Source: an uncultured Bacteroidota bacterium | GTDB lineage: Bacteria; Bacteroidota; Bacteroidia; Chitinophagales; LD1 | Assembly: GCA_903919075.1 (NCBI GenBank) | Contig: CAIXGR010000062.1 | Coordinates: 1 to 40,940 of the forward strand | Reading direction: 5' to 3' | Length of the DNA: 40,940 nt | Shown here: in pieces, positions 11,189 through 40,940 of the stretch | Layout of the letters: every line of letters starts with the position of its first letter | Position numbering within the stretch: position 1 is the stretch's first letter | The notes under the pieces: model-generated | Database searches by the model: none | Seen by the model: the letters and a program-made list of their open reading frames with translations, nothing else | What the model was told of the DNA's origin: nothing | Position numbers and translations under genes: made by a program

Positions 11189-12076
11189 TTACGCTTTAGG
11201 GTGTGCTTGTTTATATACTTCTTTAAGTTTTTCTATAGTATTATGGGTGTAAACCTGTGTAGCTGCAAGGCTGGAATGGCCCAGTAGCTCCTTAACCGCA
11301 TTTATATCCGCCCCGTTATTCATTAAATGGGTAGCAAACGTATGGCGCAATATATGCGGGCTTCTTTTATGAATAGTGGTTACAAGGTTTAGGTAGTTTT
11401 TTACGTTACCATATACAAACGATGGGCTCATTTTTCTACCCTTATCATCAACCAGTAAAAAATTCTCCTGCTGCTGTTCCATCAACGTTTTTTTCGATGC
11501 AATAAAATCTTTTATCGTAGTTCTTAATTGCGGGTGTATCGGAATAATGCGCTCCTTATTCCCCTTACCTAATACTTTTAGCTGCGAGTTATAAGTGTCA
11601 AAATCCGTTTCGCGCAGATTTATTAATTCATTGCGGCGCATACCGGTGCCATAAAAAAGCTCCAGCATCAATTTATCGCGCAAGCCCTTGTATCCTTCCG
11701 GAAACTCAATCTGGTTCATTAATTTATCGATACCGGTAGACTCAACAAATGCAGGCAAACGTTTCGATGTTTTTGGTGTTTGCACCTTGGACACTGGATT
11801 CTTTTTTATTTCACCCTTCTTCAACAAAAACTTATAAAACGATTTAAGCGCCGAAATTTTCCGATTAACCGAGCGGGCTGTTATTTTTTGTTCCATCATA
11901 CTTACCATCCAACTCCTGATATCATTATGAGAGGCCAGCGTTATTTCGTTGCTCTCATTTTCTGCCAAAAAATCGCTGAACTGTTTCAGGTCATTCTGGT
12001 ATGATTCAAGTGTATGTTTGGAGTAGCGCTTTTCGAAGGCTATAAAATTGAGAAACGATTGAACGGATGGGTGCAT
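11189..12076 (-). CDS. Tyrosine recombinase XerC/XerD-like
   Basis: The 295-residue recombinase has the length and two-domain layout of chromosomal Xer enzymes: an N-terminal SAM-like core-binding domain (FLNFIAFEKRYSKHTLESY at about 8-26) and a catalytic domain. Catalytic residues are Arg147 in GTGMRRNEL, Lys171 in LGKGNKERIIPI, His241 and Arg244 in HILRHTFATH, His267 in LLGHSSLAATQVYTH and nucleophile Tyr276. It probably resolves chromosome dimers at dif rather than moving an element: it sits among housekeeping genes with ordinary base composition and no attachment repeats that I can see. Sequence alone does not separate XerC from XerD. Confidence 0.9.
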   Translation of the reverse strand: MHPSVQSFLNFIAFEKRYSKHTLESYQNDLKQFSDFLAENESNEITLASHNDIRSWMVSMMEQKITARSVNRKISALKSFYKFLLKKGEIKKNPVSKVQTPKTSKRLPAFVESTGIDKLMNQIEFPEGYKGLRDKLMLELFYGTGMRRNELINLRETDFDTYNSQLKVLGKGNKERIIPIHPQLRTTIKDFIASKKTLMEQQQENFLLVDDKGRKMSPSFVYGNVKNYLNLVTTIHKRSPHILRHTFATHLMNNGADINAVKELLGHSSLAATQVYTHNTIEKLKEVYKQAHPKA

Positions 12077-39491: not shown

Positions 39492-39911
39492 ATGTTTGCA
39501 AAAAATAAAGCGGAAGAAGCCAACGCAGCGCTTCGCGTAATGAACCAGTTTGGACAGGGTACTATTATTAACGGCGACGTAAGCACCGAAGGCGATGTGC
39601 GGGTTGACGGTAAAGTAACTGGCAATGTAACCTCGAAATCGAAAACGGTAATAGGCACCACAGGAGTTGTGGAAGGCGATATTTTTTGCCAGAACGCATA
39701 CATTGATGGCCGCGTAACCGGAAACATTGAAGTAAGCGAGCTGCTTATTTTAAGCAAAACCGCTCACGTAATCGGCGATATTAAAATAAAGAAATTAGTA
39801 GTTGAAGAAGGTGCCAAGTTTACCGGCAGCTGTATGATGGGCATGAGCGTAGCCCGCAACGAACAACAGGACAAGCCTGTGGCACGACAAAAATATCCGC
39901 AAGCGGTATAA
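39492..39911 (+). CDS. Bactofilin (polymer-forming cytoskeletal protein)
   Basis: The 139-residue product is a bactofilin: a short N-terminal tail, then the right-handed beta-helix domain (about 20-115) with repeated six-residue rungs such as TIINGDVSTEGDVRVDGKVTGNV, VVEGDIFCQNAYIDGRVTGNI and HVIGDIKIKKLVVEEGAKFTGSC. The tail after about 120 is polar. It forms filaments without nucleotide at the inner face of the membrane. Together with the upstream M23 peptidase it probably directs local cell-wall remodelling, for shape or stalk-like structures. Confidence 0.94.
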   Translation: MFAKNKAEEANAALRVMNQFGQGTIINGDVSTEGDVRVDGKVTGNVTSKSKTVIGTTGVVEGDIFCQNAYIDGRVTGNIEVSELLILSKTAHVIGDIKIKKLVVEEGAKFTGSCMMGMSVARNEQQDKPVARQKYPQAV

Positions 39912-40028: not shown

Positions 40029-40100
40029 GGCTCCGTAGTTTAATGGATAAAACGAAGGTTTCCGGAACCTTTGATGGCAGTTCGATTCTGCCCGGGGCTA
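40029..40100 (+). tRNA. tRNA-Arg (anticodon CCG)
   Basis: The 72-base cloverleaf folds well. Acceptor arm GGCTCCG (40029-40035) pairs with CGGGGCT (40093-40099), with G1-U72 and U4-G69 wobbles, and the discriminator is A100. D-stem GTTT/AAAC, anticodon stem AAGGT/ACCTT with loop TTCCGGA (anticodon CCG at 40062-40064), and T-arm GGCAG/CTGCC around TTCGATT are all present. CCA is not encoded. A terminator follows immediately, and an integrase-type module lies downstream, so its 3' end is a likely attachment site. Confidence 0.95.
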
Positions 40101-40108
40101 CGAAAATG

Positions 40109-40148
40109 ATGCGCAACAGATTGTAAATCAATCTATTGCGCATTTTTA
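40109..40148 (+). terminator. Terminator after tRNA-Arg
   Basis: ATGCGCAA (40109-40116) pairs with TTGCGCAT (40136-40143), and AGATTG (40118-40123) with CAATCT (40129-40134), with one C-A mismatch between and a TAAAT loop. The plus strand continues with TTTTATTT. It sits 8 bases after the tRNA. The rest of 39912-40259 outside the tRNA and this hairpin holds only short AT-rich repeats (TTGAAAATT twice, at 39922-39950) and no gene. Confidence 0.85.
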
Positions 40149-40259
40149 TTTAATCCGTATACGAGCCGTTGCACAGGCCTCACAAAAAATAATCTTCCTG
40201 TAAACCTGAATCAAGTCTCACCTATCCGCTATAATGCTATGAAGCAAATGTAGGAACAA

Positions 40260-40577
40260 ATGAGCAACGATACACAAGTCATAGGCATCACGATTGGTGC
40301 GCTACGCGAACTAATCAGGGACATATTCAGAGAGGAGTTCGACCGGTTGGATAAATCGAGCACCCCTACCATTGAATACAAGGACACCGACCGGTTGTCC
40401 ATCATGCAGGTAGCCACATACCTCGGCGTCAGCAGGAAAACCGTCGACAACTACCGGGCCGCCAAGTTGATACCGGAACCGGAGTATAACCTGTCGGGCA
40501 AACCGCGCTGGACTGTGGCGCAACTGAAAGAAGCCGTCAACCAGCGAAAGGCAAAACAGAAGTTCCCGGTTAGCTGA
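40260..40577 (+). CDS. Helix-turn-helix protein, excisionase-like
   Basis: The 105-residue product has an N-terminal helical part (residues 1-35, acidic) and a winged HTH_17/MerR-like DNA-binding domain from about 46 to 95: LSIMQVATYLGVSRKTVDNYRAAKLIPEP, then GKPRWTVAQLKEAV. Small proteins of this kind next to tyrosine recombinases in Bacteroidota elements serve as excisionase or directionality factor, or as regulators of the element; which applies here is unknown. GGA lies 7 bases before ATG. Its GC content (about 53 % over 40261-40560) is higher than that of the host genes. It lies between a tRNA and a recombinase gene. Confidence 0.85.
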   Translation: MSNDTQVIGITIGALRELIRDIFREEFDRLDKSSTPTIEYKDTDRLSIMQVATYLGVSRKTVDNYRAAKLIPEPEYNLSGKPRWTVAQLKEAVNQRKAKQKFPVS

Positions 40578-40638
40578 CCGCTCATACCATAACACATATT
40601 GCAGCAACTATTCAACATGATATTATAAAAACAGTATA

Positions 40639-40940
40639 ATGAGAGAAGTAAAGAAATACGCGAGGTTCTACCTGCAAGCACGAAAAAAATGGGCCGGCGA
40701 TAAGCAGCGCGACAAACCGGTTATCATGTGGTTCAACTACAACAACAAATGTCTGAATACCACCACCGGTATTCACACCAGTGAACAGAACTGGGATTCA
40801 AAGAAACAACGGTTGAAGCCGGGTGTGACCAGGGCGACCGAGGTAAACCGCTACCTCGATTTGCTCGAGCAGAAGGTCAATGACATATATTTTAAGGCGC
40901 TATCCGAAGGCACGCCCATCAATAACGCCTACATCATTGA
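40639..40940 (+). CDS. Tyrosine recombinase (integrase), N-terminal part, cut by window end
   Basis: The frame starts at ATG 40639 and is open for 100 codons to the window edge. It begins MREVKKYARFYLQAR, then NYNNKCLNTTTGIHTSEQNWD, KKQRLKPGV and NRYLDLLEQKVNDIYFKALSEG. This matches the N-terminal arm-binding domain and start of the SAM-like domain of phage- and transposon-type integrases of Bacteroidota (TGI-x-S-x-x-WD pattern). The catalytic Arg, His and Tyr lie beyond the window, so activity cannot be judged. It probably inserted the element at tRNA-Arg, 540 bases upstream. Confidence 0.88.
   Translation, partial: MREVKKYARFYLQARKKWAGDKQRDKPVIMWFNYNNKCLNTTTGIHTSEQNWDSKKQRLKPGVTRATEVNRYLDLLEQKVNDIYFKALSEGTPINNAYII

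Follow-up and report, generated by a model that had tools for sequence, protein, structure and literature searches.

The stretch of DNA analysed here (the window) is an entire contig, C62, of 40,940 bases, from a draft genome (G000; 97 contigs, 3.53 Mb) of an uncultured Bacteroidota bacterium. It ends with a tRNA gene, a small gene and the beginning of a tyrosine recombinase. Insertion by a tyrosine recombinase at the 3' end of a tRNA gene is a textbook arrangement. The locus raises the question of whether the window ends inside such an insertion and, if so, where the inserted DNA ends. The contig breaks inside the integrase gene, so that the DNA to the right of the integrase start is unreadable on C62, and any repeat of the tRNA 3' end must be sought outside the window. 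We consider it highly probable that the window closes with the left end of an integrated mobile element, which takes up the final ~840 bases and whose far end is most likely at positions 468-480 of another contig, C80.

The left end at tRNA-Arg(CCG)

The features at the right-hand end of the window are listed below. L052 and L053 are related loci described in the next section, and G015 is the genome that contains L052.

39492-39911: bactofilin gene (open reading frame call and Pfam)
40029-40101, + strand: tRNA-Arg(CCG), the proposed insertion target, with the proposed left attachment site at its 3' end (ARAGORN)
40089-40101, + strand: TGCCCGGGGCTAC, the final 13 bases of the tRNA gene and putative attachment core (by comparison with the G015 island, whose ends are mapped)
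40108-40144, + strand: terminator-like hairpin directly 3' of the tRNA (fold of 40102-40152)
40230-40236, + strand: TATAATG block between the tRNA and the helix-turn-helix gene, shared with L052 and L053 (alignment of the three tRNA-to-gene spacers)
40260-40577, + strand: excisionase-like helix-turn-helix protein of 105 aa (open reading frame, HTH_17, PHROG)
40639-40940, + strand: arm-binding tyrosine recombinase, truncated by the contig end after its N-terminal 100 codons (Arm-DNA-bind_5)

The tRNA-Arg(CCG) is the sole tRNA that ARAGORN found in the window. The region 40102-40152 folds with -19.3 kcal/mol (z -5.7), a value that none of 200 shuffled sequences reached, and contains a T-rich run 3' of the hairpin. 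This hairpin was probably brought in by the element. The TATAATG block may be a promoter -10 element.

The 105-aa protein matched HTH_17 with an E value of 6e-5, which is under the Pfam cut-off, and its counterpart in L052 was above this cut-off. It also matched the PHROG family "excisionase and transcriptional regulator" (E 5e-9) and had no match in NCBIfam. Proteins in the same place are 63% (L052) and 54% (L053) identical. HTH_17 is among the profiles used to detect excisionases in the description of PMC8138268. The predicted function of the protein is probably to steer excision. The integrase fragment scored above the Pfam cut-off for Arm-DNA-bind_5 (E 1.4e-6), indicating that the arm-binding domain is present. 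The tRNA-Arg with its own terminator, the excisionase-like gene and the start of the tyrosine recombinase, all named in the original prediction, were confirmed by ARAGORN, folding, Pfam and PHROG.

The window contains a second tyrosine recombinase domain at 11237-11734 on the minus strand, in a 298-aa frame (Phage_integrase, E 9e-38). From its size, this protein is probably a housekeeping recombinase of the Xer type.

GC content rises at the end of the window. It is 53.1% in the helix-turn-helix gene and 47.7% in the integrase part, versus 39.1% for positions 1-39911. The earlier hand counts of 53% and 50% for the two genes, and of 35-40% for host genes, came close to these values. Windows of 600 bases over positions 1-39900 have a mean GC content of 39.0 (sd 3.0, maximum 46.3), and 40260-40940 reaches 48.8. 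However, GC content is not a constant mark of these elements, since the L052 integrase, an 80% homologue, has a GC content of 39.0%.

Relatives of the integrase and a complete island at tRNA-Met

A pattern-seeded scan of a genome contig collection, with the 100-aa integrase fragment as the query, yielded three loci, L052, L053 and L054, with 80%, 59% and 53% identity to the fragment, respectively. The match to L052 extends over 95 aa at the start of a complete integrase. In L052 and L053, a tRNA-Met is followed by a helix-turn-helix gene and an integrase of 429 or 434 aa, with spacing like that in the window, and the integrase gene adjoins the tRNA 3' end in all three places. The complete integrases of L052 and L053 contain arm, SAM-like and catalytic (Phage_integrase) domains. 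L054 has the helix-turn-helix/integrase pair, and its 11 kb contain no tRNA.

These relatives bear on another explanation of the contig end, namely that misassembly or contamination joined foreign DNA to the tRNA gene. The rise in GC content by about 10 points, which falls within the last 1 kb of the contig, would fit such an artefact, as would the fact that tRNA-Arg(CCG) does not lie beside bactofilin in relatives. Yet independent assemblies show the tRNA and the integrase arranged in the same way and similarly spaced, and the closest relative of the integrase comes from the same genus. We regard an artefact as very improbable.

The distribution of the integrase was then assessed in genomes that are mostly fragmented drafts, with the flanks of relatives covered in part. 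A search of 396 genomes of the order with the L052 integrase at E 1e-60, with no more than 4 candidates scored per genome, gave matches in 7 genomes from two genera. G000 itself had no match at this threshold. Within the genus, a close complete integrase was present in 1 of 18 genomes (G015), again with up to 4 candidates scored per genome, indicating a patchy distribution. Four others (G006, G010, G011 and G014) had nothing beyond 32-47% relatives of the G015 integrase, and the remaining genus genomes had none at E 1e-60. These genomes gave no sign that the integrase is a fixed chromosomal gene of the relatives, which would have spoken against an island; the one close relative in the genus sits at tRNA-Met. 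Of the 12 loci from the order-wide search, ARAGORN identified 3 that contain a tRNA. Two of them are the L052 locus (L068) and the L053 contig (L069) again, and in the third (L073) a 41% relative starts ~0.5 kb after tRNA-Phe. No tRNA was seen in the other 9 loci, several of which are truncated at a contig end. At class level, a search at E 1e-90, run without a positive control, found the integrase in 0 of 395 genomes, and the viral contigs searched contained no relative.

L052 lies on contig C8 of G015 (CANJZE010000008.1, a same-genus MAG contig). We compared tRNA-Met neighbourhoods in the genus via the gene preceding tRNA-Met, which was found in 15 of the 18 genomes. In G004 and G014, the closest by this gene, the gene after tRNA-Met is ~90% identical to G015 C8:100871 onward, so that ~46 kb are inserted in G015 and absent from both relatives. 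The other 12 loci had no such gene after tRNA-Met in the flank compared. G004 and G014 thus have an empty tRNA-Met site, and the G015 island comprises 46.2 kb (C8:54622-100821).

The last 13 bases of tRNA-Met, allowing up to 2 mismatches, occur at exactly three places in C8:54400-150910. The copy at 54609, within the tRNA, is the left end, the copy at 100643 an internal junction and the copy at 100822 the right end. The DNA 3' of the 100822 copy is 89% identical to the empty site of G014. The right-end core differs by one base, which is why an exact-seed repeat scan missed it. A 13-base exact match at C8:124464 was rejected because it lies outside the delimited island. A second helix-turn-helix/integrase pair (C8:98771-100409; integrase 46% identical) lies just before the internal core copy, and the island therefore looks composite.

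PADLOC was applied to 10 of the 41 island open reading frames (at least 80 aa). It returned matches to SspA, SspB, SspC, SspD, a cytosine methylase and a SIR2-like protein; 1 of the 10 had no match, and for the SspA match the DndA model scores almost as well. By these profile matches, the island carries an SspABCD-type phosphorothioation defence set.

The candidate far end on C80

The repeat in the G015 island is limited to the final 13 tRNA bases. By the same rule, a far copy of TGCCCGGGGCTAC is predicted for tRNA-Arg. G000 contains 45 sites with up to 2 mismatches to this core and 38 sites for the reversed control, making the number of 13-base matches uninformative. Four sites have at most one mismatch, namely the tRNA itself and one each on C75, C80 and C97. 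The C80 site (468-480) has 12 of the 13 core bases, lies 468 bases from the contig start and has the orientation of a right end. It falls outside long frames, the stop-free frame there measuring 64 codons. A hairpin with a T run lies 3' of position 480 (90-base fold, z -2.1; 6 of 200 shuffles as good). By a hand estimate, the chance of a site in such a position is about 4%.

The other sites were rejected. C75:74062 lies inside a 471-aa frame, and no contig end lies within 18 kb of either this site or C97:153330. Four sites with 2 mismatches near contig starts in + orientation (C10:50, C93:674, C90:795 and C47:1257) lie in stop-free frames of 113-428 codons, with no palindrome in the stretch examined.

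The palindrome in question, the 15-bp TTACAAnnnTTGTAA, was noticed in G015 before C80 was examined. The G015 island contains 6 copies, the 50.1 kb on the right of the island none, and L053, 3 kb long, two. In G000 it was found once, at C80:273, left of the candidate core. There were no copies in the window, in C36:58000-73594, in the rest of C80:1-20000, in C80:20001-30433 or, as a control, in 17 other G000 stretches totalling 340 kb. It was likewise absent from 151 kb of tRNA-Arg loci of relatives and from 33 kb of more distant integrase loci. Among 45 further loci (141 kb, partly overlapping), it was solely in L116, which is the same C80 site. The left ends of L052 and L053 carry the palindrome, and the left end in the window is without a copy, which speaks against the C80 reading. 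The palindrome is perhaps a binding site of the element's own regulator.

The DNA beyond the candidate core also has a counterpart near a tRNA-Arg. A RibD_C gene at C80:2664-3254 is 69% identical to, and in the same orientation as, one located ~1.3 kb beyond tRNA-Arg(CCG) in G024, a genome of another genus in the same family. Against giving this counterpart much weight, RibD_C lies near tRNA-Arg in 1 of 9 relative loci, and the intervening genes differ. RibD_C proteins can have paralogues.

As judged from the core copy, its position, the palindrome and the RibD_C gene, the island most likely ends at C80:468-480. Linking C62 to C80 is our inference. The site is a good candidate for the repeat of the tRNA 3' end that was expected downstream. 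Twelve of 13 bases recur on another contig, and a longer repeat did not appear: a 21-base tRNA-end pattern with 3 mismatches allowed, searched in the whole G000 assembly, found just the gene itself and tRNA-Arg(CCT).

A different right end was considered on C36, where the element, though real, would terminate in a phage-like block before atpZ and not at the start of C80. In 10 of 16 relative loci, atpZ follows bactofilin, which implies that something separated the two genes in G000. There, atpZ lies at C36:66610-66831, behind genes for an S24-type repressor and a DnaC-like helicase loader. However, C36:58000-73594 contains neither the 13-bp core (up to 2 mismatches) nor TTACAAnnnTTGTAA, and the GC content of the block is 38-43%. 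We consider this right end improbable and retain the C80 site. The block before atpZ (in the locus C36:66610-73594; L088) is possibly a second insertion or a rearrangement in its own right.

The left end might also be all that is left of an old insertion that has decayed, with no functional island following it. A search of G000 by Pfam family for the remainder of the integrase gave 6 matches, all in frames of 298-464 aa and none continuing the fragment; the assembly also yielded neither the middle of the island nor further island genes, and the far core carries a mismatch. These observations would agree with decay. On the other hand, neither the frame of the 105-aa gene nor that of the integrase is interrupted in the readable sequence, and C80:1-467 resembles another, separate element end. 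We therefore judge a mere remnant unlikely, though less so than the C36 alternative, and favour an element whose missing middle would lie between the end of C62 and the start of C80.

Proposed integration and relation to known elements

The original prediction of an island inserted at tRNA-Arg(CCG) draws support from the anatomy of the left end, the recurrence at tRNA-Met and the candidate far end. We propose that the 3' end of tRNA-Arg(CCG) recombined with a circular form of the element, in which a copy of the last ~13 bases of a tRNA gene was followed by the element's own terminator. Integration would have been catalysed by the arm-binding tyrosine recombinase that begins at 40639, and the helix-turn-helix protein would steer excision. 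The tRNA gene would remain intact, since the element supplies the 3' end that it lacks. The original end, TGCCCGGAGCTAC, would have been displaced and would now mark the far side, most likely at C80:468-480.

The core differs by one base between the tRNA-Arg end and the C80 copy. The tRNA-Arg of the window has a T4-G69 wobble, and the A69 of the C80 copy would pair with T4. By eye, four tRNAs of the genus have C4-G69 and two T4-A69, and three from other genera have T4-G69. The pattern at positions 4 and 69 fits an element that brings its own 3' end and displaces the original one, and is suggestive only, as tRNAs of other genera also have T4-G69.

A pattern search recovered a tRNA-Arg(CCG) of this type from 7 of the 18 genus genomes, and its neighbourhoods differ. 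No empty tRNA-Arg site was found in relatives and, with surroundings that are not conserved in the genus and a tRNA found in 7 of 18 genomes, none could be shown. A giant secreted protein upstream of tRNA-Arg in G006, G011 and G013 was tried as a guide to the ancestral site in G000 and proved uninformative (87 matches, a repetitive family).

The closest parallel is the G015 island. Like the window, it has a tRNA 3' end, a hairpin, a helix-turn-helix gene (63%) and an integrase (80% over 95 aa) in the same order, and it shares with the window's element the 13-bp tRNA core and the palindrome (for the window's element, at the candidate far end on C80). Unlike the window, it is located at tRNA-Met, complete, composite (two integrases), 46.2 kb long and equipped with Ssp defence genes. 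NBU1, NBU2 and Tn6031 are described in PMC5704250 as Bacteroidota integrative mobilizable elements at the 3' ends of tRNA-Leu, tRNA-Ser and tRNA-Pro, and a tandem composite at a tRNA is described there as well. By this description, and not by sequence, they resemble the window in having a tyrosine recombinase and insertion at a tRNA 3' end. The L052 integrase matched 44 plasmid and 61 phage records; every best place was below 60% identity, with ~23-31% among the matches listed. The IntCTnDOT subgroup of arm-binding tyrosine recombinases, as described in PMC8138268, shares with the window's integrase its Bacteroidota origin and an N-terminal arm-binding domain; the catalytic domain of the window's protein is cut off by the contig end. 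On the best reading, the element integrated at a tRNA 3' end and rebuilt the gene there, which is known behaviour of integrative elements.

The analysis connects an integrase truncated by a contig end with a family of islands whose limits can be mapped, and it offers a practical rule for finding island ends in fragmented genomes, namely the last 13 bases of the tRNA together with the palindrome. Tentatively, these elements may form a narrow island lineage of Bacteroidota, spanning two genera of one family, with integrases at Arg-CCG and Met-CAT tRNAs, a 13-bp core and a 15-bp palindrome as its mark. Such islands would supply a new tRNA 3' end and terminator, and the lineage may be a vehicle of phage defence. 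In G015, an element with this type of integrase carries a phosphorothioation defence set that is absent at that site in two close relatives.
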